Shown in pieces: positions 43,811 to 58,858 of a stretch of DNA of 64,000 nucleotides. The notes under the pieces were generated by a model. It was not told the origin of the DNA. It did not search any database and was given only the letters and a program-made list of their open reading frames with translations. Source of the DNA: Paraburkholderia phenazinium (GTDB taxonomy: Bacteria > Pseudomonadota > Gammaproteobacteria > Burkholderiales > Burkholderiaceae); assembly GCF_900141745.1 (NCBI RefSeq), contig NZ_FSRM01000001.1, forward strand, positions 3,410,001 through 3,474,000, read 5' to 3'. The translations under genes were made by a program, and so were the position numbers. Within the stretch, counting starts at the first letter, position 1. Every line of letters begins with the position of its first letter.

Positions 43811-44761
43811 ATGAGCGCCACCCGCCCTCGCCTGTACATCCAGGAAGTCGCCACCCGCGACGGCTTCCAGAACGAAGCCCGCTTCATTGAAACCGACGAC
43901 AAGGTTGCCTTGATCGATCGACTGAGTGCCTGCGGTTTCGCCAAAATCGAAGTGACTTCGTTCACCTCGCCGCGCGCCATTCCGGCGCTGCGCGATGCCG
44001 AAGCGGTAATGCATCGCATCGAGCGCCGCGCCGGTGTGGTCTATACCGTACTGGTGCCGAACGTGCGCGGTGCCGAACGCGCGTTGTCATGCGATGTCGA
44101 CGAAGTCAATCTGGTGATGTCGGTCAGCGAAAGCCACAATCGGGCAAATCTGCGCATGAGCCGGGAAGAATCGTTCGCACAACTGCGGGATGTGATCGAA
44201 GTAGTGAGCCGCACGCGAGTAGCGATTAACGTGTCGCTGTCGACCGCGTTTGGCTGCCCCATGGAGGGCGACGTTGCGGAAGACGAAGTGCTGAGCTGGG
44301 TTGCGCGCTTCGCCACGCTCGGCGTGCACGGGGTCACGCTGTGCGACACGACCGGCATGGCGTATCCCAACCAGGTCCGGCAACTGGCACAACGCACGCG
44401 CGATGAATTCGCCGGACTGGAAACCACGCTGCACTTTCACAACACGCGGGGGATGGCGCTCGCCAACACGCTGGCTGCATTGGACGCAGGCATCGACCGC
44501 TTCGACGCCTCGCTGGGCGGCCTGGGCGGTTGTCCCTATGCACCGGGCGCGACGGGGAACGTGTGCACCGAAGAACTCGTGCATATGCTGGAACTGAACG
44601 GCTACGATACCGGTGTCGATCTCACCCAGGTGTTGCAGGCTGCCGCACATTTGCCAGGGCTGATCGGCCACGACGTACCGAGCCAGTTGCTCAAGGCCGG
44701 CCGGCGGCTCGATCTGCATCCGGCTCCGGATGCGGGTGAGCAGCGACCTTCCGCGGCCTGA
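43811..44761 (+). CDS. Hydroxymethylglutaryl-CoA lyase-like enzyme
   Basis: A 316-residue DRE-TIM metallolyase. The N-terminal EVATRDGFQNE carries the catalytic Arg-Asp; TLCDTTGMA and LHFHNTRGMALAN hold metal-binding His residues; and SLGGLGGCPYAPGATGN is the HMG-CoA lyase signature with its catalytic Cys. It cleaves a 3-hydroxy-3-methyl-acyl-CoA to acetyl-CoA or pyruvate plus a ketone or keto acid; true HMG-CoA lyase and citramalyl-CoA-type activity are both possible. Ribosome binding site CAGGAGACC precedes the ATG. Paired with a CoA-transferase. Confidence 0.9.
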   Translation: MSATRPRLYIQEVATRDGFQNEARFIETDDKVALIDRLSACGFAKIEVTSFTSPRAIPALRDAEAVMHRIERRAGVVYTVLVPNVRGAERALSCDVDEVNLVMSVSESHNRANLRMSREESFAQLRDVIEVVSRTRVAINVSLSTAFGCPMEGDVAEDEVLSWVARFATLGVHGVTLCDTTGMAYPNQVRQLAQRTRDEFAGLETTLHFHNTRGMALANTLAALDAGIDRFDASLGGLGGCPYAPGATGNVCTEELVHMLELNGYDTGVDLTQVLQAAAHLPGLIGHDVPSQLLKAGRRLDLHPAPDAGEQRPSAA

Positions 44762-44779
44762 ACGGCGGCGTTCCGCTCG

Positions 44780-45718
44780 TCAGGGCTGCGCGCCCGGTAT
44801 CTCGTCAGGGCAGATTCCCGCACGTCCGACTCCAACGGTCTGCAGCGCGCCGTCAGCCACATACGGCACCAACCCGTCCTTGCAGATTTTCAGCACGGTG
44901 TCGCGCGTGCATTGTTCGTCGCCGGGAGCACAGTAGTCGATTGCGATCACTGGCAACTCATATTTTTCGCTCACAACCCTCGCCTGCCCCAGCAGCCAGT
45001 CGCGGTCTGCCTGTGACACCGTCGTATAACGCTGGTTCGGCTGATCCCAGCCGCTGTAGAGCGATTCGAAGGCCACCGCGTACACGAGATCGTGCACCTG
45101 CGGCAGGATCTCGAAGCCGCGGTTAAACATCAATCTGGCTCGTGGATAGCGCTTCTTGATCGCGCGGATCACCTCCACCAGTCCTGCTTGCTGGCGGGCG
45201 CGGTCTGCATCGGTTTTGGCGATCAGTTGATACGAATCGAGCGTATCCAGAAAGAAGCCGCGATAGCCTTTACGCCAGAGCGGCGCAATCACCTGCTTCA
45301 CATAGAACGCTGGCCAGCCGGGTGCGTCCTGATCGACGACCTTCGACGCCCACGCGGGGTTATTGCCAGCCAGCCAGTCCTGCGGCATCGCAGCGTAGTA
45401 GGCGCGTTGCGGCGTGACTTCGCCGACGCTGACGTATGCGAACCAGGCGATATGGCGATTATGTTGGATTGCAGGATCGAGGTTGCTATCCGGCTCGACC
45501 ACCACCACATCGAATCCGGACAGTGCCTCGACAGGTACCTTGTCGCCGTAAAAGAACGCCACTGAGGGCTGCATGGAAGCATTCGCCGCCGTGGCGGAGT
45601 GACTCCCCGCGCTGGCGGCGCTCTGGGCTTGCGCGAGAGGTCCCAGTCCGGCGGCCGTGCCGAAGCAGGCCACCCAGGCAGCGAAGCGGCACAGCGCGCG
45701 CACCATAAACATTCGCAT
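44780..45718 (-). CDS. Stand-alone PelA-type glycoside hydrolase (endo-alpha-1,4-polygalactosaminidase-like)
   Basis: A 312-residue exported TIM-barrel hydrolase resembling the GH114-like (now PelA hydrolase/GH166-like) domain, predicted to cut partially deacetylated alpha-1,4-galactosaminoglycan (Pel). Signal peptide to about residue 32. Catalytic candidates are Asp158 in GFFLDTLD and Glu218 in VAFESLYSGWD; the YVSVGE element (95-100) and FNRGFE are also intact. It lies 9 bp after pelG on the same strand, so it is the eighth gene of the pel operon. P. aeruginosa pel has no such gene; there the activity resides in PelA. The PelA of this locus has lost these motifs. Confidence 0.88.
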   Translation of the reverse strand: MRMFMVRALCRFAAWVACFGTAAGLGPLAQAQSAASAGSHSATAANASMQPSVAFFYGDKVPVEALSGFDVVVVEPDSNLDPAIQHNRHIAWFAYVSVGEVTPQRAYYAAMPQDWLAGNNPAWASKVVDQDAPGWPAFYVKQVIAPLWRKGYRGFFLDTLDSYQLIAKTDADRARQQAGLVEVIRAIKKRYPRARLMFNRGFEILPQVHDLVYAVAFESLYSGWDQPNQRYTTVSQADRDWLLGQARVVSEKYELPVIAIDYCAPGDEQCTRDTVLKICKDGLVPYVADGALQTVGVGRAGICPDEIPGAQP

Positions 45719-45727
45719 CCCGCACTA

Positions 45728-47101
45728 TCAGTTATGCAGCATGTAGGTTTCGTATTCGAGTTTGGCGAACTTGCGATCCAGCGTCAGCACCGCGCCGACT
45801 ACCAGAATCAGCAGCGCCAAAGCAAAACCATACCCATACGTATTGGGACTCATCTGCAACGTGATCCACGTCAGCGCGCCGTTGAGCACCACAAACGCCA
45901 CACACAGCTTCAACACCGTACGTCGTGCATCCAGATAGAAGAACACGTTCAGGAGACCCAACAGCACCACCTGCAGACTGGCCGCAATCACGTCGACGGT
46001 GAGAAGCGGCATGTATAGCGGCGAAATATTCAGCGCCGCGAGCACGTTCGACCCAAAAGCGAAAATCAGCAGCAGCACGACAACCTGAATCTTGATGATC
46101 TCATACAGACCCGCACGCACGCTGCCCACCATCATGTCGCGCATATCGTTGATGTGGCGCAGCGTCGCGCCGCTGCGCACGGCATCGTAGAACGCGTCGT
46201 AATACTCGACGAAGTCCGCCTCGATACGCACCAGGAAGGTCGCCATGCCAGGCATCACGCACACATAGGCGATGAACACCGGGATATCGTAGATCACCGA
46301 TGCATGCAGCGGCCCGATGACCGGCGCGCCCGTGCCTGGCGAATACCAGAACATGAACTTGTCGAGCCACACGCCGAGATTGAAGAACAGCCCCACCAGC
46401 GCGAGCGTCGGATAAGCGAAGCGCTTGTCGAACACCTCGAAGGAAATCAGCCGGCCGCTGCGGTAGTTACGGTAGATCAATCCGGACAGACCGCCCAGCA
46501 ACACCAGGTGGCCCGCAACAAAGCCGCCGAGCAGCCCCGACAGGCCGTGCCGGTTGAGCATCAGCGCGAACGCGACGGTGCAGCCGTAGCCGATCAGAAA
46601 CACAAACAGGATCTGCCGGTACTGCTTGACGCTGGAGAGAAAAATCACGGCGATCCAGATGTTGCTGATCACCACGAAACCCGCCACCATCAGCACGCGA
46701 TAGGCCAAAGGCTCGCTCTTGAACCCCACCAGCATTGCCACCACGCCCACCAGCCCGGAAGCGATCGTGCTGACCAGCACGACCCCGTTGTAGTTCGACA
46801 GCACCAGATCGTCGCGCTTTTCAAACAGGCGGTCGGAGATGAAACGCGTAAACGACAGTTGCAGCGGACCCGTCAAAATCAGGCTCAGCGCAATCAGATA
46901 CGTCACCGATATCTGAAACTGCACGATCGCGTATTTCGGTATCACGAACGCGAGGCTCATCACCCCGATGATCAGGATACCGAAGATCGACAGGATCAAC
47001 GGCCCCGAGCTGATCAGGCCAGCGTAGGCGTAAGCCCGCGCGACACCGAACAGCGTGTCGTGCTTGAGGATCTTGCGCAGTTCGAAACCAATCCCGGCCA
47101 T
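45728..47101 (-). CDS. pelG: Pel polysaccharide membrane protein PelG
   Basis: A 457-residue, about 12-span membrane protein of the PelG family (MOP flippase-like), expected to move Pel across the inner membrane with PelD, PelE and PelF. Start MAGIGFELRKILKHDTLFG is the conserved N terminus. It begins at 47101, sharing a base with the pelF stop (TAATG), so the frame open further upstream is not part of it. Length matches the family. Confidence 0.95.
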   Translation of the reverse strand: MAGIGFELRKILKHDTLFGVARAYAYAGLISSGPLILSIFGILIIGVMSLAFVIPKYAIVQFQISVTYLIALSLILTGPLQLSFTRFISDRLFEKRDDLVLSNYNGVVLVSTIASGLVGVVAMLVGFKSEPLAYRVLMVAGFVVISNIWIAVIFLSSVKQYRQILFVFLIGYGCTVAFALMLNRHGLSGLLGGFVAGHLVLLGGLSGLIYRNYRSGRLISFEVFDKRFAYPTLALVGLFFNLGVWLDKFMFWYSPGTGAPVIGPLHASVIYDIPVFIAYVCVMPGMATFLVRIEADFVEYYDAFYDAVRSGATLRHINDMRDMMVGSVRAGLYEIIKIQVVVLLLIFAFGSNVLAALNISPLYMPLLTVDVIAASLQVVLLGLLNVFFYLDARRTVLKLCVAFVVLNGALTWITLQMSPNTYGYGFALALLILVVGAVLTLDRKFAKLEYETYMLHN

Positions 47102-48729
47102 TAGCGTGTCTCCCCGGCTTGAGCGGTGCGCGGGCTCGTCTGCGCGCCATGGTGCACCGGGCAGCCGCCCGCGGCTGCGTTGCGCGAGCCGCGCGGAACA
47201 TCCGGGGCCGCTGCGAGCTTCTCGTACAGGGTCCGGTAGCTGTCGGTCATCTGCGCCTTCGTGTAATAGCGGCGCACCCGTGCGAGGCCAGCCTGCTGCG
47301 CGGCCTGCCAGCGGGCGTCGTCGTTCAGCAGCGCCACCACGGCCTGCGCGAAGGCGGCCGGATTGGCGATCTGCACCACTGCGCCCGCACTGCCGAGCGC
47401 GCGGTCTTCCGCATCGAGTCCTTCGATCATCTGGCGGCATGCGCCGACATCGGTCGTGATGGACGGAATACCGGCTGCAAACCCTTCCAGCACGACCAGT
47501 GGCAACGCCTCGCTGATCGACGTGAGGGCGATGACGTCGATTTTCGGCAGCACATCGTCGATGCGCTGAAAGCCGAGAAACTTCACGTTTGCGGCCAGCC
47601 CCAGACTCTCCACCAGCGCACGGCATTCGAGCGCGTAACCCGGATCTTCTTCTTCCGGCCCGATGATCCAGCCTTCGATCTCGGGCATGCTGCGGGAGGC
47701 CACGAACATGGCGCGAATAAACGTCTTGATGTCCTTGATCGGCACCACCCGGCCGATCAGCGCGACCACCTTGTGCGGCCCTGCCTTGCGCTGCTCGACA
47801 AGCGGTGCAAGGCCGTCGACGTCCACGCCATTCGGAATGCTGCGGGTGCGCTCGGCAACCGCGCCGTCTGCGACCTGGCGCAAGCGGTTCGTTTCGTACA
47901 GGGCGACGATGTCGTCGGCGGCGTCGTACGCGAGCTTGCCGATCGCCTCGAAAAAGCGCACCCAGAGTTCGCGGAAATAACTGATACGCGAGATGTCACG
48001 CTCGAATGCGCCGCGATTGTCGCGAATCCACTGACTCTGCAACAGATCGATCTTGCGCTCTTTCGTGTAGATACCGTGCTCGGAAATCAGCAGCGGCCGC
48101 CCCGTGCGGTAGTGCAGCAGCGCACCGAGAAAGCCTGCGTATCCCGTCGAAATCGTGTGATAGACCTTCGCCGGTATCAGCTTCTCAGCGACGTTCGCGA
48201 GTAACCACAACGGCTTGTGCATGATCCGCACGGTCCAGAAGTAGTCGGTAAACGACGGGTCGGTGCAGTGCTTTTCGTACTGCTCGACGATGAACTCCCA
48301 CGACTGGCGGCTCGCCAGAAACTGCGCTTCGTTGAGCGCGCCGTGTTCGCCGAGCGTCGGCACCATCTCGGCCATCAGCTTGCCCACATCCGCACCGCGC
48401 ACGTCGCGCAAAGCCGCGTGCAACTCGGCCGACTTCGCAAACGCCGCGGCGTCGCCTTCAATCTCGCGCGGCCGGCTGGCGTCTACGGAAGCCGTCTCAT
48501 ACAGGTAATGGGTCTCGAAGTGCACGACGTTGTCGGGCAACTTGTAGGCCGCACCGTGATAGTCCTGCTCGCGGCTGCCGATAAAGACAATCGCAAAGCG
48601 CGTCTGCGGGTACGCGCGCAGCATTTCGTTGACCCAGCTCGACACCCCGCCCCGCACAAACGGGAAGGTGCCTTCCAGCAGCAGGCAGACATCGGCATCG
48701 GCGGCACGCCGCATCAAGGACTCTTTCAT
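47101..48729 (-). CDS. pelF: Pel glycosyltransferase PelF
   Basis: A 542-residue GT4 glycosyltransferase, the cytosolic polymerase of Pel, using a UDP-sugar donor. Seen: LLLEGTFPFVRGGVSSWVNEML near the N terminus (PelF signature), ISEHGIYTKERKIDL, IGRVVPIKDIKTFI donor-site strand, and TSISEALPLVVLEGFAAG, the GT4 E-x7-E motif. The start at 48729 overlaps the pelE stop as ATGA. The C-terminal 40 residues beyond the GT4 fold are low-complexity. Confidence 0.95.
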   Translation of the reverse strand: MKESLMRRAADADVCLLLEGTFPFVRGGVSSWVNEMLRAYPQTRFAIVFIGSREQDYHGAAYKLPDNVVHFETHYLYETASVDASRPREIEGDAAAFAKSAELHAALRDVRGADVGKLMAEMVPTLGEHGALNEAQFLASRQSWEFIVEQYEKHCTDPSFTDYFWTVRIMHKPLWLLANVAEKLIPAKVYHTISTGYAGFLGALLHYRTGRPLLISEHGIYTKERKIDLLQSQWIRDNRGAFERDISRISYFRELWVRFFEAIGKLAYDAADDIVALYETNRLRQVADGAVAERTRSIPNGVDVDGLAPLVEQRKAGPHKVVALIGRVVPIKDIKTFIRAMFVASRSMPEIEGWIIGPEEEDPGYALECRALVESLGLAANVKFLGFQRIDDVLPKIDVIALTSISEALPLVVLEGFAAGIPSITTDVGACRQMIEGLDAEDRALGSAGAVVQIANPAAFAQAVVALLNDDARWQAAQQAGLARVRRYYTKAQMTDSYRTLYEKLAAAPDVPRGSRNAAAGGCPVHHGAQTSPRTAQAGETR

Positions 48730-49739
48730 GATGACCAGTAAGTCACAGCAGGTTTGAGCGTCGGCAGCGCTGCGGCATTGCCGAGCGTCGCGAGCCATTG
48801 ACTGGTTTGAGCGTAGTCGCCGCGCAGGAACGCCACTTCGGCGAGCCAGGGCGTCAGGCGTTCACGCGGAAAGCCCAGTTCGAGGGCGCGTTCCATGTAC
48901 TGTCCCGCTTCATCGGGGCGGCCCTCGGCAAGCGCGAGGCGGCCGCGAATCAGCCACAGCGCCGCGTCCTTGTCGTCGGTAGCGAGCGCGTCGCGTGCGT
49001 AGCGGTCGGCCTGCTCGAGCGTATGGCGATACACCGCGCCCTGCACGAGGTTCTGATAGACCAGCTCGAAATACAGTTCGGCGAGGCGCCGGTTGATCGC
49101 ATGGCGCTCGCTGTCGTCCTTCGCCTGTTCGAGGGCTTTAGCGGTCGTGAAGATCTTCTGCATGATCTCGTTCTCGGCCTGGTCCAGCGTGCCGTAAGCA
49201 ATCAGACGCACGTCCTCGATCGGATCGGCCAGCAGATCGCGCAACAGTGTGCCCGTGGTGCGGGTGGGCATGCTCTGGATTGCGACGAGTGCGGTAAGCC
49301 GGTCGGTCGAAGAGACCTGCGTGTTGATCAGGCGCGCCTGCAGCCGGGCTCCGCCACCGTGCGAAACGCGCGAGACGAGGTAGCTGACGAATTCAGGGCG
49401 CGGCACATCGGTCAGTTGATCGCTGTCTCTCGTGCCCGGGAACCACGCTGCCCAGATACAGCTTGCCAGCAGGACGAGGCCGGCGCCGAGCGGCACGAAC
49501 GTGCACAGCACCCACAGCAGCAGGAGCGTCCAGAAGCGCGGCTCGCGGTAACGCGACGGCAGCATCACGCGCAGCAGCAGCGCCTGCACGAGCGCAACCA
49601 GCGCCTGCGCGACAAAGCCGGCCAGCAGCGGATCGACGCCCGCAGGTGCGCGCAGGAAGCTCAGGTACGCGAAGTATTCCACCAGCACATAGCCGGCGAA
49701 CGACAGCACGTTGACGAGGGCGGAAATGAGCTTAGACAT
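48726..49739 (-). CDS. pelE: Pel inner-membrane TPR protein PelE
   Basis: A 337-residue protein with N-terminal membrane segments (residues about 5-25, 35-60, 67-95) and a cytosolic helical repeat (TPR-like) C-terminal half, including LWLIRGRLALAEGRPDEAGQYMERALELG. PelE bridges PelD to PelF/PelG in the inner-membrane complex. It overlaps pelD by 8 bp and pelF by 4 bp. Sequence is less conserved than its neighbours, so the name rests partly on position and architecture. Confidence 0.9.
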   Translation of the reverse strand: MSKLISALVNVLSFAGYVLVEYFAYLSFLRAPAGVDPLLAGFVAQALVALVQALLLRVMLPSRYREPRFWTLLLLWVLCTFVPLGAGLVLLASCIWAAWFPGTRDSDQLTDVPRPEFVSYLVSRVSHGGGARLQARLINTQVSSTDRLTALVAIQSMPTRTTGTLLRDLLADPIEDVRLIAYGTLDQAENEIMQKIFTTAKALEQAKDDSERHAINRRLAELYFELVYQNLVQGAVYRHTLEQADRYARDALATDDKDAALWLIRGRLALAEGRPDEAGQYMERALELGFPRERLTPWLAEVAFLRGDYAQTSQWLATLGNAAALPTLKPAVTYWSS

Positions 49740-51156
49740 CGAGGCCGCTACGCTTGAGAAGGCGCTGCAGCGCCGGACCGGGATCCATGGTGCCCAGATG
49801 CAGCGTATGCACGCCGACGCGGGCGCTCTCCAGATTCAGGTTGAACTGGGCCGAGAGGCTGCCTTCGATACGGGCGAGATAACCGTCGATGCCGGTCGTG
49901 TCCGTTGCAGGCATGAGGTTGACCAGCACCGACTGCGACGCCGTTTGCACCGGCCACATCAGGTCGAGCGCACGACGGCGGCGAATCACGTGTTCGAACA
50001 GCGAGTCGCCCGCTTCGTCGCGCGGGAACGCCAACGCGACCATCGACGAAGCGATTCCGGCGTCGCGCTGCAGACGCGTCAGGCGTCCAAGGTCGAGCGC
50101 GAAATCGTACGGACAGCCAGGCACAGCGGCAAGGATGCCCTGCACGAGGCCCGAGTGCTCCACGCCGTCCGCGTAATAGCCGAGCAGCACCAGCAGCAGT
50201 TGCAGGTTATCGAAGTTCAGCGACAGGAACGGCATGCGCTTGATCACCAGCACCGCCAGCAACTGGCCGTCGGCGCTGACAAGAGGCGCGCACACCAGGT
50301 ATTGCGACTGGGCGACGGGGATATCCTCGCTTTTCAGATGCGCGACGCTCATCGTGCTGATAGCGTGCGTGACAAGCTCGTCGTCCGGCGCGAGCGCGAA
50401 GTCATCGCCCACGCGGGCAGCAGCCTCGCGGCCGACCTGGCCGTTGCGCACCGGGAACAGCGCCGCGACTTCGATCTGGCATACCTGGGCGACAAATTCG
50501 AGCAGACCATGCGCGCCCGGCAACGCGCGCAACGAAGCAGGAGGTGTGACGGTGTCCTGAGCACCGCTCTCTCCCTGCACCGACAGGCGTCGCAACTCGG
50601 TAATCGAATCGCGCAGCGTGGTGGGCCGGGACAGCAGATCTTTTTCGAGCCGCTCGTGCGACAGGCGCATCAGATAGTGGCTGTTGGTGATCGCCACGAG
50701 ACGGTCGTTCAGGTAGTCATTGATGGTCGAAGCACGCGCGGCGCGATGGCCCCACGTATCGCCGAAGTGACCCGCGACGATGGTCTGCAGCAGCCCGCCG
50801 GTGAAGAACATCAGGGGCCACGGCTGGCCGTGGCTGCCGCCCAGCAGATACCATGCGCCCACCGTCATCGCGCTCGCCAGCAGTCCGAGCAACGTGCCGT
50901 AGCGCAGGGCGATCACGAACGGCGCGAACCACAACCACGGGAAACCCGAATTCAGCAGCAGCGGATCCGTACGGTCGAACGCCCAGCACAGCCCGAACAC
51001 CACGAGCATGAAGATGATCGTTTCGACAATAGCGAAGGGCCGTGTAACAGCGGGCGCGACCAGCCGACGCACGGCGCCAAGGTTGCCGAACGGGTTCGAG
51101 TGGCGCGGTTTCGACGCGGCGGCGCCGGTTTGCGCGGTAGCGGTAGCTGTATTCAC
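49732..51156 (-). CDS. pelD: c-di-GMP receptor PelD
   Basis: A 474-residue inner-membrane protein: four membrane segments (about residues 37-125), a short coiled region, a GAF domain (about 210-320) and a C-terminal degenerate GGDEF domain. The inhibitory-site motif that binds c-di-GMP is visible as Arg395-Ala-Leu-Asp398 (RxxD) within IRRRRALDLMWP. No intact GGDEF signature is present, as expected for a receptor rather than a cyclase. Binding of c-di-GMP by PelD switches on Pel synthesis in Pseudomonas. Confidence 0.94.
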   Translation of the reverse strand: MNTATATAQTGAAASKPRHSNPFGNLGAVRRLVAPAVTRPFAIVETIIFMLVVFGLCWAFDRTDPLLLNSGFPWLWFAPFVIALRYGTLLGLLASAMTVGAWYLLGGSHGQPWPLMFFTGGLLQTIVAGHFGDTWGHRAARASTINDYLNDRLVAITNSHYLMRLSHERLEKDLLSRPTTLRDSITELRRLSVQGESGAQDTVTPPASLRALPGAHGLLEFVAQVCQIEVAALFPVRNGQVGREAAARVGDDFALAPDDELVTHAISTMSVAHLKSEDIPVAQSQYLVCAPLVSADGQLLAVLVIKRMPFLSLNFDNLQLLLVLLGYYADGVEHSGLVQGILAAVPGCPYDFALDLGRLTRLQRDAGIASSMVALAFPRDEAGDSLFEHVIRRRRALDLMWPVQTASQSVLVNLMPATDTTGIDGYLARIEGSLSAQFNLNLESARVGVHTLHLGTMDPGPALQRLLKRSGLDV

Positions 51157-51205: not shown

Positions 51206-51757
51206 TCACGAATGCGCGTGCAGCGGTGCAAGCAGGCCACCGATCAGCGTCGTGGCGACACTCGAGAGACTCGAGCGGCTCCAGCCACTGCGCGTGCCCG
51301 TAGCACTCCAGACAACCTGGCCCGACGTCACGTCGATCAGCTGGAACGTAAGACCAGCCACCGGTTCGCCGTCGACACCGACCTTGTAGCGCCACTCTTC
51401 GACCGCACCGGTCAGCACGTACTTGATGTGCTGATCGCGCGCCCAGCCGAGTTGCTTCTCGCCCGTGTCGCGCTGCGCGGTGTCGAACATGGCGGTATTC
51501 GCGCCGTCGACCGGTGCAAGGCGCACGTCCGCGAAACCGTTCGCGCGCAGCACGTTCGCAGCGATCGCAGCTGCGCTGCCACCGGCGGCCGGCGTTTCGG
51601 TGAAGTTAGCCATCGACACCACCGCAACCGAATCCTGTGACGTCAAAGCCGGCATGCCGGTCTGCCGGATCGAGCTGCATGCGCCGAGCAACAGCGCGCA
51701 TGTCGCCAGCGCGGCGGACCAGCCGGCCATACGGGACCATCCTTTAGTCTTGCTCAT
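51206..51757 (-). CDS. pelC: Pel outer-membrane lipoprotein PelC
   Basis: A 183-residue lipoprotein; lipobox LLGAC with Cys27 after a short hydrophobic signal. PelC forms a dodecameric ring on the periplasmic face of the outer membrane that guides Pel to PelB. GAGGAG ribosome binding site directly upstream of the ATG. It lies 116 bp after pelB and 49 bp before pelD. Length and layout are normal for the family. Confidence 0.92.
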   Translation of the reverse strand: MSKTKGWSRMAGWSAALATCALLLGACSSIRQTGMPALTSQDSVAVVSMANFTETPAAGGSAAAIAANVLRANGFADVRLAPVDGANTAMFDTAQRDTGEKQLGWARDQHIKYVLTGAVEEWRYKVGVDGEPVAGLTFQLIDVTSGQVVWSATGTRSGWSRSSLSSVATTLIGGLLAPLHAHS

Positions 51758-51873: not shown

Positions 51874-54800
51874 TCAATAAAACCAGTTGTAGCGCATACC
51901 CACCACCGTCTGCGGCGTACCCAGCCGCGACACGGACTGATGCTCGAAATACAGCGCGAGATGATCGCCGCCGAACACCGAACCCGCGAGTCCAACGCTG
52001 ACGTCAGGCCCCCACCCCTGGATCGAGTTGTGCACGATGCCGACATCGAGAAACGGCCGCCATGCATGCGTGTACTGATTGAGCAGGTCGTTGCCGAAGC
52101 CGAAGTACAGGCCATACTGCGTATAGCTCTGCGGTATGAAGTCGCTGGCGAGAGCCGGCTGCAAGGCCGCCGGCTCGAGCTGCGAAATCAGGCTGTCGGC
52201 CGAACCACTCGCACCGTAACCGCCGTGTTCGCCAACCAGACGGAACGTGTAATCGGGGTAGCCCGTGCGGATCCGGTAGCTGATTTCACCGGTTTCCAGC
52301 AGCCCGCTGCCGATGTAATCGCGCGCCTGGCTGTAGAAGCGGTCGCCTTCGACGCTACCGGTCATCGTGATTTGCTGGGTTGCGCGCCACGTGAAGTCGC
52401 CGACCAGGTTGTCCTTCATGCCGCCAATCTGGAGGAACTGGTCCTCGTCTGCGAGCTGATTGCGGCCAGCGTGCACGCCGAACTGCAGATCCGAGTTGCG
52501 GCCCGTTTCCGCTGCGAGTTGCACCGTGTAGAAACTGTCGAGCGCCTCGCGGCGGCCGATCGTCACGCTCGCCGTTGAATCCACCGTCTGCCGCTGCAGG
52601 AAAAAGCTGAGCGAGCGATCGACGGACGGAACATTGACGAGCTGGGTAATGTCCGTCGAGCGCTGGAAGTTCTGCACTTCCGTCGCGCCGATCAGGTAGT
52701 GGTCGGCGATTTTCTTGCTGCCGGCGAGCGTCTGCGCGACGTAGTCGAGCGGATGTTCGACATAGTTCACGACGCTCGCGTCGATCGACTGCGGCCAGTC
52801 GAGCGCTGTTTCGGTCAGGCGTGTATGTACGTCGTTGTTGTCGGGAGCGCCGTCGAGTCCGTCGAAGGCGAGCTGCTCTGCCCGGCCCTGCCGGTCGGTT
52901 GCCACCTCGGCGTCGATGCGATCGTCCAGCGGCAGGCGCGAGCGCTCCTGCGCGAGCAGTTGTTCCATCGCGCCGGTATCGTTTTCCGCGAGTGCGATCG
53001 TGAGACGCGCATCGGCTGGCTGAGCAAGGCGCGCCGCGTATTGCTGGGCCAGCCAGCGCTTCGCGAGCGGATTGCTCTCGTGCGACACACCCCAGGCGAT
53101 CGCTACGTCCTTGGCGACTGCATCGCGCAGGCGGTTATTCTGCGCGGTATCGATACCGGCTTCGGGCGCCGCGCCGGGCAAACCCTTGGCAGTACCGAGC
53201 AGCGAACGGCGGGCAAGCTTCACGCTCTCCGTCGACTGGGTGCCGGAGAGCAGATCGTTCAGCATGGCGGCCGAGTCGTCGCCGGTCTGGAAATCCGTCG
53301 AGAGCGTCACGCGCCGGCCACGAATGTCCGCGAGGGTTTCAGCGTCCTGGCCGGAACGGCCCCGCTGCGCGGCACGTGCCGCGCCGTGCAGTTTGGCCAA
53401 TGCCGCTTCATCCTGCTGCAGTTGCTGCCAGACCTTATGACGGATCGACCAGGCGAGATCGGGGCGGCCTGCCATTTCCTGGGCGTCGGCATACGTCATC
53501 AGCCACAGCGGATCCCGCGACAACGACGCGGATTCGCGCCGCAGATAGTCGAGCGCGCGCACCGGACGGTTCAGGCGCATCTCGGCGGCCGCGTACGGTT
53601 CCCATAACGCAGCACTCCTGTCTTCCGTGCCACGCCAGCGTTTCAAGGTCGCATCCAGCTGCGCGTCGGTGCCGTAGTCGACCAGGGTCCACAAATAGGC
53701 CGCGCGCAGGTCCGAAGTCGCACCCGGCAGATTGACCGCGTGCTTCAGATCGTCGAGCGCCTTCTCGGGCTGGTCGGTCAGGCGATAGTATTCGGCGCGC
53801 ACACCGAGTACGCCGGGCGACTGCAGCGCTTCGTCGCGCTCCTGCTCCGTGAGGCTCGCCAGCAGCGCGGCCACACGGTCGAGCGCCTGTGCGTCGGTGT
53901 AGTAGTAGATCGCGTTTTGCAGCGCACGCGGCGAATGATCGCGGCGGTACTGCAACTCGGCAACCCGTGCTGCATCGATCGGATACGGATCGAAGAAGTA
54001 CGTCATGTCACCAAGGTCTTCCGGCGTGCTGTCACCGCCCGCGAGCAGGTGACGGTACGCTTCGCTCGCCTCGGCGTCACGCTGCAACAGGCGTGCGAGT
54101 TCGGCGTAGTTGCGCCAGTAGTCGGTATCGCTGTCTTTCGCATTGCCGCGTGCGCTTTGCAGTGCTGCGAACGAGGCCTCGTAATTACCCTCGCGATACA
54201 GCACGCTCGCCGTACGCAGCGCAGCGCCCGCGTTGCCGGGATCGCGCGACTGCACGGCGCGGTACGCCGCGAGCGCCTGATCGTCGTGGCCCGCGCGTTC
54301 GGCGAGCGCGCCGATGCGCTGATCGATTGCATCGGCGTTGTGTCCGCGCGGCAAGCCTCGCAAAAACGCGAGGCCGTCGTCCGGCCGGCCGAGCCGCTCG
54401 TAAGTCGCGATCACGTTGTCGACCAGCTTCAGATCGTCGGGCGACGCCTGGGACGCGTGAACGAGGGCCGCAAGATACGCGTTGTCGTCGTCGAGCATCG
54501 GTGCGATGCGCAGGACGTTTTGCCAACCTACAGGGTCGTTCGACAGTCTTGCGTAGTCGAGCCAGGCATTCAACGCGAGCGACGGATTGCGGTCCCACTC
54601 GGCGGTCTGCGCGAGACGCTTCGTCCACAGGACCGAGCGCGGATCCCGCTGGACCTGCTGCTGGGCGATTTTCTCGGCATTTGCAAGGTCACCCGATTCG
54701 ACGAACGACTGGAATACGAGGTCGGCTACCTTCGGATCCTTGCCGCCGCCCGGCGCGGTGCCGTCGGAGGCCGGTGCGGGCGCCGCGGCGGGTGCCGGGT

Positions 54801-56013
54801 CGGCTGGCGCAACGGGCTTGGGACTGGCCGGCGCGGCGGGTGCCGGGCTGGGTGTCGCGGCGGCTGCCAGCGTAGCCGTAACGGCGGGCGCTGGGCTCGG
54901 CGCCGCAACGGGCTTCGTGCCCGGCGCCGGCGTGGGCACCGGGTTTGCACCCGTGCTCGCGGCAACCCGGATCACGCCCCACCACTCCGTCGCCTTGCGC
55001 ATGCTCACCGAGGCGAAACCATGGTGCGTCGGCAGCGGACCATCCATATAGGCATACGCCGACTGCGGCGTGTCTTGCGACACGTCTCGCTCCCCACCCT
55101 GCGGAGCGTCGGATGCGATTGCAGCCGTACCATCCTGTGCCAGAGCCGTGTCAGGCCCGGATGGCTGCGCCTGCGCGTAGCGCGCGAGCATCTTCGCGTA
55201 GTAATCGACGCGATCGGGCCGGTTGGCGGCGCGCGCGAGATTGAGCAACACGACCAGGGTTGCCGGATCGGTATCGAGCGCGCCGAGATGTTGATCGGCA
55301 GCCGTCAGCGCCTCGTTCAACAGATTGCCTGACTGCAGCGTGCGGATCGCCGCAATGAAACAGCGCCGCTGTTCTTCGCGCGTCTTCGCCGCGGCCTGCT
55401 GGCGGAACCAGGCATCGGCCCCAGCGCGGTAGTCGCCCGTCTGAATGGCGTAGCGTGTGATCTGCGTATCCCAACCGTTGCGCCCGCCCGGGTCGCCCGC
55501 CGAAAGACGCGTGTAGAGTTGCAACGCCAGATCGGGCAAACCAACCGCGGCGCAACGCTGCGCCAGCCATTCGAGATCCTTCGGCGCCCACGGCAAGCGC
55601 GCGGCCTGCGTCAACTGCGCACGCAGATTCGCAAGCGCGGCTTCGCGGCGGGGGTCGTCCTCGGGAATCGCAAACGTACGCTGTTCGGCGATCGACAGCC
55701 GCAGCATCATCGCGGCAAGCCGCATGTGAGTCGAACCGAGCGCCTCCATCCGCCGGGCTACCCGGGCGGCGTCGTCCATCCGCCCGAGCGACGTGTACTG
55801 CGCACCCAGCAGCGAGAGGAATTCCTCGTTGTTCGGCTGGACCTTCGACCAGGCTTCGAGGTAGGCAGCACTCAGATCGCTCGGCGCGCCTACTGATGCC
55901 AGCCGTTGCTGCAGGCCACCGCGCGGCGACGACGCGATCATCGTCAGCGGCACCACTGCAGCAAGCAGCAGGACGAGCTTGGTCGGAGCGATACGCGGAC
56001 GCTCAGCGCGCAC
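51874..56013 (-). CDS. pelB: Pel outer-membrane export porin PelB (TPR plus beta-barrel)
   Basis: A 1379-residue protein: a membrane segment near residues 11-28, then tetratricopeptide-type helical repeats through most of its length (for example LDDLKHAVNLPGATSDLRAAYLW), and a C-terminal outer-membrane beta-barrel from about residue 1130 to the terminal aromatic residue (NWFY). It is the secretin-like pore through which Pel leaves the cell and its TPRs bind PelA. Somewhat longer than the Pseudomonas protein; part of the excess is a Pro/Ala linker at about 350-425. It overlaps pelA by 11 bp. Confidence 0.95.
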   Translation of the reverse strand: MRAERPRIAPTKLVLLLAAVVPLTMIASSPRGGLQQRLASVGAPSDLSAAYLEAWSKVQPNNEEFLSLLGAQYTSLGRMDDAARVARRMEALGSTHMRLAAMMLRLSIAEQRTFAIPEDDPRREAALANLRAQLTQAARLPWAPKDLEWLAQRCAAVGLPDLALQLYTRLSAGDPGGRNGWDTQITRYAIQTGDYRAGADAWFRQQAAAKTREEQRRCFIAAIRTLQSGNLLNEALTAADQHLGALDTDPATLVVLLNLARAANRPDRVDYYAKMLARYAQAQPSGPDTALAQDGTAAIASDAPQGGERDVSQDTPQSAYAYMDGPLPTHHGFASVSMRKATEWWGVIRVAASTGANPVPTPAPGTKPVAAPSPAPAVTATLAAAATPSPAPAAPASPKPVAPADPAPAAAPAPASDGTAPGGGKDPKVADLVFQSFVESGDLANAEKIAQQQVQRDPRSVLWTKRLAQTAEWDRNPSLALNAWLDYARLSNDPVGWQNVLRIAPMLDDDNAYLAALVHASQASPDDLKLVDNVIATYERLGRPDDGLAFLRGLPRGHNADAIDQRIGALAERAGHDDQALAAYRAVQSRDPGNAGAALRTASVLYREGNYEASFAALQSARGNAKDSDTDYWRNYAELARLLQRDAEASEAYRHLLAGGDSTPEDLGDMTYFFDPYPIDAARVAELQYRRDHSPRALQNAIYYYTDAQALDRVAALLASLTEQERDEALQSPGVLGVRAEYYRLTDQPEKALDDLKHAVNLPGATSDLRAAYLWTLVDYGTDAQLDATLKRWRGTEDRSAALWEPYAAAEMRLNRPVRALDYLRRESASLSRDPLWLMTYADAQEMAGRPDLAWSIRHKVWQQLQQDEAALAKLHGAARAAQRGRSGQDAETLADIRGRRVTLSTDFQTGDDSAAMLNDLLSGTQSTESVKLARRSLLGTAKGLPGAAPEAGIDTAQNNRLRDAVAKDVAIAWGVSHESNPLAKRWLAQQYAARLAQPADARLTIALAENDTGAMEQLLAQERSRLPLDDRIDAEVATDRQGRAEQLAFDGLDGAPDNNDVHTRLTETALDWPQSIDASVVNYVEHPLDYVAQTLAGSKKIADHYLIGATEVQNFQRSTDITQLVNVPSVDRSLSFFLQRQTVDSTASVTIGRREALDSFYTVQLAAETGRNSDLQFGVHAGRNQLADEDQFLQIGGMKDNLVGDFTWRATQQITMTGSVEGDRFYSQARDYIGSGLLETGEISYRIRTGYPDYTFRLVGEHGGYGASGSADSLISQLEPAALQPALASDFIPQSYTQYGLYFGFGNDLLNQYTHAWRPFLDVGIVHNSIQGWGPDVSVGLAGSVFGGDHLALYFEHQSVSRLGTPQTVVGMRYNWFY

Positions 56014-58858
56014 AGTTGACCTCGACCGGTTGATAGTTCATCTGCAAATCCGCGCTCGCGGACGTGTCGAAACGCAGGGACGAGCCGTTGCGTTGTACAG
56101 CCACGGACCGGCCGGCAACCTCGACACTGCAGGTGCCAGCATTGGCCAGTTGTACGAACGGCTGGTAATAGCCACCAAACTCGAATGCCATCCCGCGCGC
56201 CGTACGTTTGAACTGACGGACGTAACCGTTGGCGACGGCGATGTAGGGCAGTTGTGCATTCGCCGTCTGCGCCGCATCGGCCTGGGTGATCGCAAATGAC
56301 GCGGCGCCATCCGCGAAATGAATGTATGTGCCGTCGGCGCCCACGTCGTAACCGGTGACACCGGCCGACGCGCGCAGATCCGGTACGCTGCCTGGAGGCG
56401 CACGCAGTTCGCGCACTTCGCCGTCGCCACGCACGATCCAGTTCGAATCAGGGCTGCGTGCGGCGCCCGCCGGCGCAATCGCACGCGCAACCGCGAAGTT
56501 ATGCCAGTCGAGCACCTTGTGCGTGTAATCCGTGATCCTGACCGGCAGCACCGGCTCTTTGAGCACCGTCGAGAAAATCTGGTCGAGCGCACGCAGTGAT
56601 GCGACCTTGGTACCGCTGTACATGTGGTAGTAAATGTCGATCGGCTTGAAGCGCAGCGGTTTGTCGGTCAGGTCGAAGGTCTCGAGTACGCGCGTAAAAC
56701 CGTAGAACGGGCCGAGCCAGTCGTTGGTGTAAACGTTCTCATCCTGATTCGGTGCGTACACCTGATACGCGCCCGGCCCTTTGTCGACACCGATCGGCGC
56801 GATATTGGTCCAGCTGTTCGCGCTCTTCGTGATGACCGTGTCCCCGCCATTGATGTTCTGGACGCCCGCCGCATAGGTTTTGCGCACGACGATCGCGGGC
56901 GGCTCGCAGTTGCCGGGCCACTGCAGGATGACCGTCTTCTTGCCCGGCGGCGCGAGGCGCGTGTTGATGTAGTCGATCGAGCCGGTAATCTCGCGATCGA
57001 TATTGAACTTGTAGTTCGGGATGTTCAGCGAAAACGCCGTATCGCCACCGCCGCGATCGATCCGCTCACCCGTCGTCGCATCAATGTCCTCCCACTCGAA
57101 CGGGTGAGAATAGGTGTGCGTACCAATCTCGACGTACGGCAGTGCGAACATTTTGCGAGCGATCTCTTCGAGACGCGGCGAGATCTGCGGATACAGGCCC
57201 TTCGGCCCCACTTCGCCTTCGATGACCGACAGGGTCATCGGGATCTTGTAGCGGCTGAATACCTGTTCATAGAGCGCTTCACCCGAGTAATCGGCCCCGG
57301 GGAATTCGACGCGTGACGCGAAGCCGTCGCCGTCCACGTGCGTCATGAAGAGGCGCCGGCCGTTTTCCGTCGTCACGTTGGGGGCCGGCATCTGCCGCAG
57401 GCGCAACGCTGCCGTGAGAAACGAAATGGGCTGGATCGCCCAGCGTTCCTGACCGATACCGTTGAGCGATACGATCGTGTATGGGTTCATCGCGTAGCCG
57501 CCCCACGGCGTGACCGCGACTTCATCGAGCGTGGCGTTGCCCGAGCGCACGCGCAGCAGCGAATGGCTCGCGGCGCCTACCTGAATACCGACGAGGTCGC
57601 GCGGCCCCGGTTTCGGGTCGATCTCGAAGCCGATCATCGGATCTCGCGAAACGATTTCCAGCGGATCGTTGAAGGGACCGGCAACGGCCAGCAGATCGAG
57701 CGCCGCGCCGTCGTCCTGCTCGGCGTCAAAACCGAACTGGCCAAGAAATGCGACCGGGACGTGCGCCGCCATGCGCGCCTCTACCCACGAGCGCCATGCA
57801 CTGCTGTCACGCAGATCGTCGCCCTGGAACCACGCGACGACACCGGCGTACCGATCCGGGGTGATGTCGCTGGGCAACTGGCCATTGGCGTCGGCGTATT
57901 CGACGTCATAGCCGAGATAGTTGAGCGGCGTCGCGAGATCGCGCACGCCCGGAGTTTCGTCCAGCGGCAGACCCGCAGCCGGATCTTGCACCACCAGGAT
58001 CTTGCGCGGCAGCACTTCGATTGCTCCCACGCCGACTACATCGGCGGCAGCGTCCGTCACATACGGCGCCACGCCCGTCGCCAGCACCGTGGCCGCCGTC
58101 GCGCGGGCGCACACGCGGTCGGCAGGCGGGCAATATTCGAGCGAAATGACCGGCACGCCGGTCTGCTGCGTGAAGGCGCGGTCAGCGGCGACACGGCTCG
58201 CGCGCGTGGCGTCCGGCACGTCGAGCAGCTGTGCACCGCCGTTGCCCAGCCCACGCACCAGCGAATCGCCAATCACCGCGTACAAGGCTTTGGCATGCGT
58301 TTGCGCCGCTTGCAGCGCGTCCGGGCCGGCGACGACGAGGCGTGCATCCGGATGGGCGGCACGAATAGCCTCGGCGGCCGCGATCGCCGCTGGCGTGTCG
58401 AGCAGGAAGCCGCGATAGCCCCGCTGCCACAGCGGCGCGAGGGATTGTGCAAAAGCGTTGGGTGTGACGCCCGGATCCGACGGGTGCGTGCGGGCTATCC
58501 ACACGGTATGCGCCAGCGGGTGCGCTGCGGGATCAAAACCACGCGTGGGATCTACCACCACGGCGTCGAATGCCTGCAGCAGATCGACCGGGACGTTCGA
58601 ACCGAAGAAAAGCGCCAGGTTCGGCTGTGCCGGATGGCCGGAGACGCCGGCAAGCGCCTCGCCGGCATGGGCCGGCGACGCTGCCTGCGCGTACGCAGCC
58701 TGGTTCGGCGCGAGGCTCGTTGCCAGAACGATGAGTGTAGCGGCGCAGCAACGCACCGCTCTCGTCGCCAGCGTACTCAGCTGTAGTCGTTTGATGAGCG
58801 CCACCACCCCCGGGGCCCCCACTTGCGCGCCGAATCTCGGCGCAATCCTCGTTCGCAT
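56003..58858 (-). CDS. pelA: Pel deacetylase PelA with degenerate hydrolase domain
   Basis: A 951-residue periplasmic protein. After a signal peptide (about residues 1-58) come a PelA hydrolase-like domain (about 78-285), a reductase/Rossmann-like middle region and a polysaccharide deacetylase domain with intact metal motifs: Asp509-Gly-Asp511 in THVDGDGF and His581/His585 in GTHTYSHPF. PelA partly deacetylates Pel. In the hydrolase-like domain the expected catalytic Glu is Asp198 (VIGDSL), the Y-x-S-x-G-E element and the NRGFE strand are missing, and only Asp154 in FLLDT remains. First gene of the operon. Confidence 0.93.
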   Translation of the reverse strand: MRTRIAPRFGAQVGAPGVVALIKRLQLSTLATRAVRCCAATLIVLATSLAPNQAAYAQAASPAHAGEALAGVSGHPAQPNLALFFGSNVPVDLLQAFDAVVVDPTRGFDPAAHPLAHTVWIARTHPSDPGVTPNAFAQSLAPLWQRGYRGFLLDTPAAIAAAEAIRAAHPDARLVVAGPDALQAAQTHAKALYAVIGDSLVRGLGNGGAQLLDVPDATRASRVAADRAFTQQTGVPVISLEYCPPADRVCARATAATVLATGVAPYVTDAAADVVGVGAIEVLPRKILVVQDPAAGLPLDETPGVRDLATPLNYLGYDVEYADANGQLPSDITPDRYAGVVAWFQGDDLRDSSAWRSWVEARMAAHVPVAFLGQFGFDAEQDDGAALDLLAVAGPFNDPLEIVSRDPMIGFEIDPKPGPRDLVGIQVGAASHSLLRVRSGNATLDEVAVTPWGGYAMNPYTIVSLNGIGQERWAIQPISFLTAALRLRQMPAPNVTTENGRRLFMTHVDGDGFASRVEFPGADYSGEALYEQVFSRYKIPMTLSVIEGEVGPKGLYPQISPRLEEIARKMFALPYVEIGTHTYSHPFEWEDIDATTGERIDRGGGDTAFSLNIPNYKFNIDREITGSIDYINTRLAPPGKKTVILQWPGNCEPPAIVVRKTYAAGVQNINGGDTVITKSANSWTNIAPIGVDKGPGAYQVYAPNQDENVYTNDWLGPFYGFTRVLETFDLTDKPLRFKPIDIYYHMYSGTKVASLRALDQIFSTVLKEPVLPVRITDYTHKVLDWHNFAVARAIAPAGAARSPDSNWIVRGDGEVRELRAPPGSVPDLRASAGVTGYDVGADGTYIHFADGAASFAITQADAAQTANAQLPYIAVANGYVRQFKRTARGMAFEFGGYYQPFVQLANAGTCSVEVAGRSVAVQRNGSSLRFDTSASADLQMNYQPVEVNCAR

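Follow-up and report, generated by a model that had tools for sequence, protein, structure and literature searches.

A separate GH166-type hydrolase gene accompanies a PelA with an inactive-looking hydrolase barrel in a clade of Gram-negative pel operons

Results

Organization of the pel operon in Paraburkholderia phenazinium

We analyzed a stretch of 64,000 nt from Paraburkholderia phenazinium (NZ_FSRM01000001.1, positions 3,410,001-3,474,000 of the forward strand), hereafter the window, which belongs to an 8.3 Mb genome in two contigs. Seven genes, pelABCDEFG, lie in this order on one strand of the window and are followed by an eighth gene, named S here. We presumed the pelABCDEFG order in naming pelC and pelE, which were assigned by place only. 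The features are listed below in window coordinates.

44780..45718, minus strand: gene S, eighth in the operon, encoding a free-standing pelAH-like hydrolase of GH166 type, by homology to the PelA hydrolase
45065..45067, minus strand: codon of S Glu218 (PaPelA Glu218)
45245..45247, minus strand: codon of S Asp158 (PaPelA Asp160)
45728..47101, minus strand: pelG (Pfam PelG, 1.1e-152), with MAGIGFELRK as the assumed start
47101..48798, minus strand: pelF (NF038011, 5.6e-253)
48726..49739, minus strand: pelE, by place in the gene order; weak TPR matches only
49732..51156, minus strand: pelD (Pfam PelD_GGDEF, 1.3e-45)
51206..51757, minus strand: pelC, by place in the gene order; no Pfam match
51874..56013, minus strand: pelB (Pfam PelB C-terminal barrel, 8.7e-66; TPR)
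56003..58858, minus strand: pelA (9cgy match), encoding a deacetylase whose N-terminal barrel looks non-catalytic
58004..58624, minus strand: PelA N-terminal (beta/alpha)8 barrel, putative pseudo-hydrolase, about residues 79-285, bounds approximate
58265..58267, minus strand: codon of PelA Asp198 (PaPelA Glu218, now Asp)
58397..58399, minus strand: codon of PelA Asp154 (PaPelA Asp160, kept)

The S open reading frame encodes 312 aa and begins after a 9 bp spacer (45719-45727) that follows the pelG stop, which confirms both the frame and the spacing given in the initial annotation. A crude sigma-70 scan of positions 44500-46000 for a promoter of S's own found 0, with 0.3 expected.

S retains the hydrolase residues of PelA

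S had been read as a homolog of the PelA hydrolase domain that keeps Asp158, Glu218, YVSVGE and NRGFE, and database matches and alignment agree on this. In PDB, S matched the PelA hydrolase domains of 9cgy (E 1.5e-47) and 5tcb (E 2.5e-44, S residues 50-301), the match to the founding GH166 member running across the catalytic domain, and in Pfam it matched Glyco_hydro_114 (6.3e-22). The motifs YVSVGE, FLDTLD (with Asp158), FNRGFE and AFESLYSGWD (with Glu218) were all found, and Asp158 and Glu218 align with the GH166 catalytic residues Asp160 and Glu218 of PaPelA, whose numbers were derived from the 5tcb index. Among aligned non-redundant rows, in which identical rows were merged, Asp160, Glu218 and the Asn and Arg of NRG were present in 65/65 S-type proteins and in 98/98 intact PelA. 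Judged by eye only, S carries a putative export signal with cleavage near residue 31. We infer that S leaves the cytoplasm and acts on Pel. Only S itself and PelA matched S at E 0.01 in the window genome, and the Pfam GH114 model picked out one further gene there, on the second contig.

PelA has lost most of the hydrolase site and keeps the deacetylase site

The window PelA keeps Asp154 within FLLDT and has Asp198 in place of Glu within VIGDS; both the glutamate at position 218 and the insertion after beta3, which characterize GH166, are missing. By phmmer, PelA matched 9cgy from residue 232 onward (2.1e-135), and its match to 5tcb was weak (1e-05, residues 195-284). When the profile of the N-terminal remnant was compared with that of S by hhalign, the probability was 100 and the E value 2.6e-44, with gaps of ~31 and ~18 residues, and the homology of the two is therefore not due to chance.

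The initial annotation had PelA without about 45 residues and without the NRGFE strand. Residues are indeed missing, but in two gaps (~31 after beta3 and ~16 after the catalytic Asp), and the NRG residues are gone while strands beta3 and beta5 are still present in a predicted structure. This AlphaFold2 model of PelA, built with 42 PelA sequences (22 of them from operons with an intact hydrolase domain in PelA, the fused kind described below), had a mean pLDDT of 90.2 and a pTM of 0.92. Its N-domain was confidently predicted, with the eight strands of the GH166 (beta/alpha)8 barrel, Asp154 following strand 4 and Asp198 strand 6 (our strand numbering). Foldseek aligned the model with 9cgy over 905 columns (TM 0.81/0.87) and with 5tcb at TM 0.67 by target length (rmsd 3.4).

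The metal motifs of the deacetylase (CE21), HVDGD and HTYSH, aligned with the His-x-Asp-x-Asp and His-x3-His motifs of 9cgy, and D444, D446, H516 and H520 (model numbering) were invariant in the 42 PelA rows.

A separate hydrolase occurs with degenerate PelA and not with intact PelA

We compared 230 PelF-bearing loci, consisting of the best 80 of 557 named loci, 149 family loci and the window; some genomes occur in both sets and are thus counted twice. The 149 loci were taken around PelF, among the matches listed, from genomes of the window's family, excluding the window's own locus; PelF was present in 145/398 genomes of this family. Loci with an intact hydrolase domain in PelA were classed as fused (n = 112) and those with a separate S and a degenerate PelA domain as split (n = 59). 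The remainder comprised 2 loci that have a degenerate PelA and lack an S of their own, 15 in which a separate hydrolase but no PelA was seen, 8 whose PelA runs off the end of the DNA, and 34 with neither. Two loci, L022 and L042, in which the PelA N-terminus lies outside the locus DNA, were classed as split by S and clade only and left out of residue counts; the degenerate domain was seen in the other 57 of the 59 split loci. An S-like fragment in L228, the 5' portion of a disrupted fused PelA gene, was dropped before counting, and the locus was counted as fused.

The combination proposed for the window, a separate hydrolase that looks intact and a PelA whose hydrolase site is degraded, was thus found in 57 of the 230 loci surveyed. 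The case that would speak against this division, a separate S (>200 bits) in the same locus as an intact PelA domain, occurred in 0/112 fused loci, of which 107 were covered for at least 1 kb beyond pelG (five end <1 kb after it) and 71 for at least 1 kb before pelA. Bit scores against S did not overlap between the two kinds of PelA (intact, at least 210; split, at most 132). Within the family sample, 118 of the 119 genomes with an S-like match also had PelF; the exception is 78% complete and carries a fused ORF.

Relative to pelG, S lay downstream and in the same orientation in 57/59 split loci; in the other two (L191 and L202) it lay upstream of pelA. The PelA N-domain of these two is altered differently (AFDGLD), and they possibly have a separate history. 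As for the loci with degenerate PelA and no S, genome G051 has S on another contig than pelF; in G343 (locus L188) the degenerate PelA keeps Glu at position 218, no stand-alone S was found in the genome, and a second pel operon carries an intact fused PelA.

Several further arrangements were observed. A GH114-like gene, lipoprotein-looking by eye, stands as a ninth gene between pelG and S in L008, L018, L158, L170, L174, L192 and L204, that is, in 7/59 split loci as against 0/112 fused loci (>100 bits); two of these genes were run against Pfam PF03537 and gave 2e-9 and 1.2e-10, and a GH114-like gene is also linked to L007. Genome G017, which has the split operon L165, contains a second S-like match (60%) on another contig (C10:216198-217028), inside an ORF of 839 residues. 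L207-L227 and L229-L232 are PelF-PelG pairs without PelA or S, mostly of low PelF score and some cut by contig ends; they are perhaps a different PelFG system.

The degenerate PelA domain is under purifying selection

In 52 split-type PelA rows, position 218 was occupied by D (20), P (15), G (8), E (4), Q (2), H (1), A (1) or S (1), and position 160 by an acid throughout (D46, E6). The Asn of NRG was lost in 52/52 rows, with the Arg kept in one. The stretch after beta3 had shortened from a median of 56 to 25 residues (largest 29), none of the rows having it at full length, and that after the catalytic Asp from a median of 56 to 40. We infer that the window PelA does not hydrolyze Pel. Since position 160 is acidic and Glu218 is kept in 4/52 rows as well as in G522 (see below), some split PelA may have residual hydrolase activity.

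Selection was examined in 22 pairs of split loci, hand-chosen as neighbors on the PelF tree; only these are cited because the set of all pairs held many near-saturated ones, and even here dS is near or >1 in a few (window-L005, L143-L204, L183-L187, L191-L202). The PelA remnant had a median dN/dS of 0.218 (largest 0.307), compared with 0.106 in the deacetylase portion and 0.141 in S. The PelA N-domain is under purifying selection, and on the values over the 22 pairs we rejected its neutral decay. The description of this domain as a decayed remnant is accordingly opposed by both the dN/dS values and the well-folded predicted barrel.

Split operons form one lineage

In a PelF tree of 150 rows, fused and split operons were separated by one branch (SH-aLRT 99). 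The same branch had an ultrafast bootstrap of 100 and SH-aLRT of 99 in a tree of 68 rows, where a single change was found in 100% of 200 bootstrap trees, and the same separation appeared in the PelG and PelA-deacetylase trees (SH-aLRT 100 each). As fused and split operons fall on two sides of one branch, one switch kept by descent, rather than many, is indicated, and the 59 split loci are therefore not independent of each other. If Alcanivorax (gammaproteobacterial) rows are assumed as the outgroup, the split operons fall within the fused ones. The tree of 163 hydrolase domains, which bears on whether S is a copy of its own PelA or derives from a different one, had a weak backbone.

The window operon looks mosaic: the deacetylase part of pelA clusters with L179, unlike pelF, pelG and S, which fall with L005 and L006. 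To judge from these groupings, pelA appears to have been exchanged within the split class.

The split lineage occurs mainly in Burkholderiaceae, sometimes in the same genome as the fused kind. Among the best 80 of 557 named loci, 21 were split: 12 from Paraburkholderia, 2 from Trinickia, 1 each from Burkholderia sp., Pandoraea, Chromobacterium, Xenophilus sp. AP218F and Paracandidimonas, and two from MAGs, the PelA N-terminus being out of view in the Paracandidimonas locus and in one of the two MAGs. By PelF, the closest loci of this set came from a Paraburkholderia MAG (97%) and from P. phenazinium and Burkholderia sp. 4M9327F10 (89% each). Both classes, with one operon of each, occur in five genomes belonging to the same genus as the window (G164, G219, G340, G355 and G384) and in Paraburkholderia sp. 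C35 (L009 and L049).

Outside the window's family, the link between S and degenerate PelA is looser. A scan of the order gave an S-like match in 43/399 genomes. A stand-alone S together with a weak PelA match was found in G522, G592, G650, G733 and G759, all of one genus in another family; G522, the one of the five that was read, has pelABCDEFG-S with PelF inside the split clade, and its PelA has lost the Asp and keeps the Glu. In a scan of the class, 21/369 genomes had an S-like match, and 13 of the 14 matches below 1e-50, own genome apart, lay in ORFs of at least 900 residues, as in fused PelA. In G1138, a fused PelA is accompanied by a distant stand-alone S-like ORF (305 aa). G664 and G711 combine PelF with an S-like ORF that stands alone, and PelA deacetylase was not found in them; G933, from outside the order, contains such an ORF too, with no match for PelF or PelA deacetylase.

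Discussion

We consider it probable, judging from sequence comparison and the predicted fold, that Pel hydrolysis has been handed over from the N-domain of PelA to the separate, exported protein S, with the PelA barrel kept as a non-catalytic domain. Either in the periplasm or beyond it, S would cleave the alpha-1,4-GalNAc/GalN polymer and in this way determine how long the chains are and how much Pel is cell-free. PelA would act as a deacetylase with intact metal motifs that still carries its old barrel, now non-catalytic. The barrel probably holds or guides the Pel chain, or else keeps the four-domain shape in which PelA works with PelB.

Could the barrel instead still hydrolyze Pel, with Asp154 and Asp198 as its acid pair and S as an additional enzyme? 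Acids do stand at both catalytic positions of the window PelA, and the Asp160 position is acidic in 52/52 split rows; however, position 218 is non-acid in 28/52 of them, and a separate S was not seen in the 112 loci with an intact PelA, which makes this reading quite unlikely. We give still less credence to the idea that the N-domain is drifting neutrally towards loss. A domain in that state would display deletions, dispersed substitutions at the catalytic columns and a raised dN/dS, all of which are observed here, the ratio being about twice that of the deacetylase part; but it would hardly keep dN/dS at or below 0.307 in all 22 pairs, persist in 57/57 split loci where it is visible, and yield a confidently predicted barrel.

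The remaining alternative concerns S, which could serve another role, such as dispersal of the matrix of others, nutrition or action on the related galactosaminogalactan, with Pel not hydrolyzed during synthesis. S is, after all, a separate protein; a cross-kingdom activity of GH166 PelAH is reported in PMC12054363, and the S-like ORF of G933 comes without PelF or PelA deacetylase. Against this, S-like genes accompany PelF in nearly all S-bearing genomes of the family, and S mostly sits directly after pelG and tracks the split operon clade. On balance we regard such a role as improbable and prefer the transfer of Pel hydrolysis from PelA to S.

The suggestion that this division would allow hydrolysis to be controlled separately is not supported as it was put, because S is the last gene of the same-strand run in the window. 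Separate control of S is possible: the gene can sit elsewhere, as in G051, while in the window it follows pelG after 9 bp.

Bacillus cereus ATCC 10987 already provides an example of a hydrolase encoded separately next to a pel operon, in its case pelDEADAFG with pelAH (BCE_5582) as the separate gene (PMC7112168; also PMC13254593). There PelAH disrupts Pel biofilms, and deletion of pelAH raises adherent biomass (PMC7112168). In the same accounts, the B. cereus deacetylase protein is without hydrolase activity, as the window PelA presumably is, yet it has no hydrolase domain at all, whereas the window PelA retains the whole barrel in the predicted model and lacks the site. Moreover, pelAH is divergently transcribed in B. 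cereus and S is last in its run, and the window operon has pelB and pelC, unlike that of B. cereus. PelA and S of the window may thus work like PelADA and PelAH within a different architecture.

With P. aeruginosa and P. thermotolerans (5TCB, 9CGY) the window shares the pelABCDEFG order and the four-domain PelA, and S matches the hydrolase domain of their PelA in sequence; both active sites are on one PelA in those species, unlike in the window (PMC12022489 and PMC9894940). According to PMC9894940, secreted Pel of low molecular weight is a product of the P. aeruginosa PelA hydrolase, which also lowers adherent biomass. From these reports on the P. aeruginosa and B. cereus hydrolases, S would be expected to trim Pel likewise in the window.

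Hydrolase and deacetylase also reside on different proteins, as in the window, in loci with an Agd3-like CE18 deacetylase, which PMC7229062 notes near Pel-type genes; unlike in the window, the PelA deacetylase is absent from them. We observed an Agd3-like CE18 protein and a separate PelAH, with no PelA deacetylase, in L190 (7759-9762; PF25115, 5.9e-35), L058/L194 and L077 (13279-15309), and PelA deacetylase was not found in 4/4 genomes searched of a genus (g12) with the same layout. In L077 (Telluria antibiotica), pelB is directly preceded by a stand-alone PelAH (1981-2943) where pelA would otherwise be, and a transposase-like gene lies upstream of it. Rearrangements, gains and losses in pel operons are described in PMC7112194.

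The arrangement had been put forward as undescribed. This does not hold for a stand-alone PelAH, which is known and tested in B. cereus (PMC7112168), and stands for the Gram-negative split class, of which we found no description in the open-access literature, subscription papers being mostly beyond that search. As far as the literature searched goes, what is new is the Gram-negative clade with its retained, inactive-looking barrel; the splitting of hydrolase and deacetylase is known in Gram-positives.

A wider picture, which we offer only tentatively, is that the Pel machinery of Gram-negative bacteria comes in two classes, in the second of which the hydrolase was outsourced once. The PelA barrel might then be a pseudo-enzyme that grips Pel and guides it to the deacetylase and PelB, the freed hydrolase, sometimes with the GH114-like enzyme, might tune chain length outside PelAB, and genomes with both classes might make two differently trimmed Pel polymers.

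A 2025 survey of PelA reports that the hydrolase residues are conserved in full-length homologs, including, from the betaproteobacteria, those of Neisseriaceae, Ralstonia and Cupriavidus (PMC12022489); the Ralstonia and Cupriavidus pel loci are fused in our comparison too. The split class qualifies the claim of that survey that full-length Gram-negative PelA keep both hydrolase and deacetylase residues. It also constitutes a natural experiment on why exopolysaccharide operons carry hydrolases: the selected, apparently non-catalytic barrel makes a structural role of the hydrolase domain testable apart from cutting, and genomes with both operon classes permit a comparison within one cell. The S-type proteins themselves are single-domain candidates for Pel-degrading enzymes.
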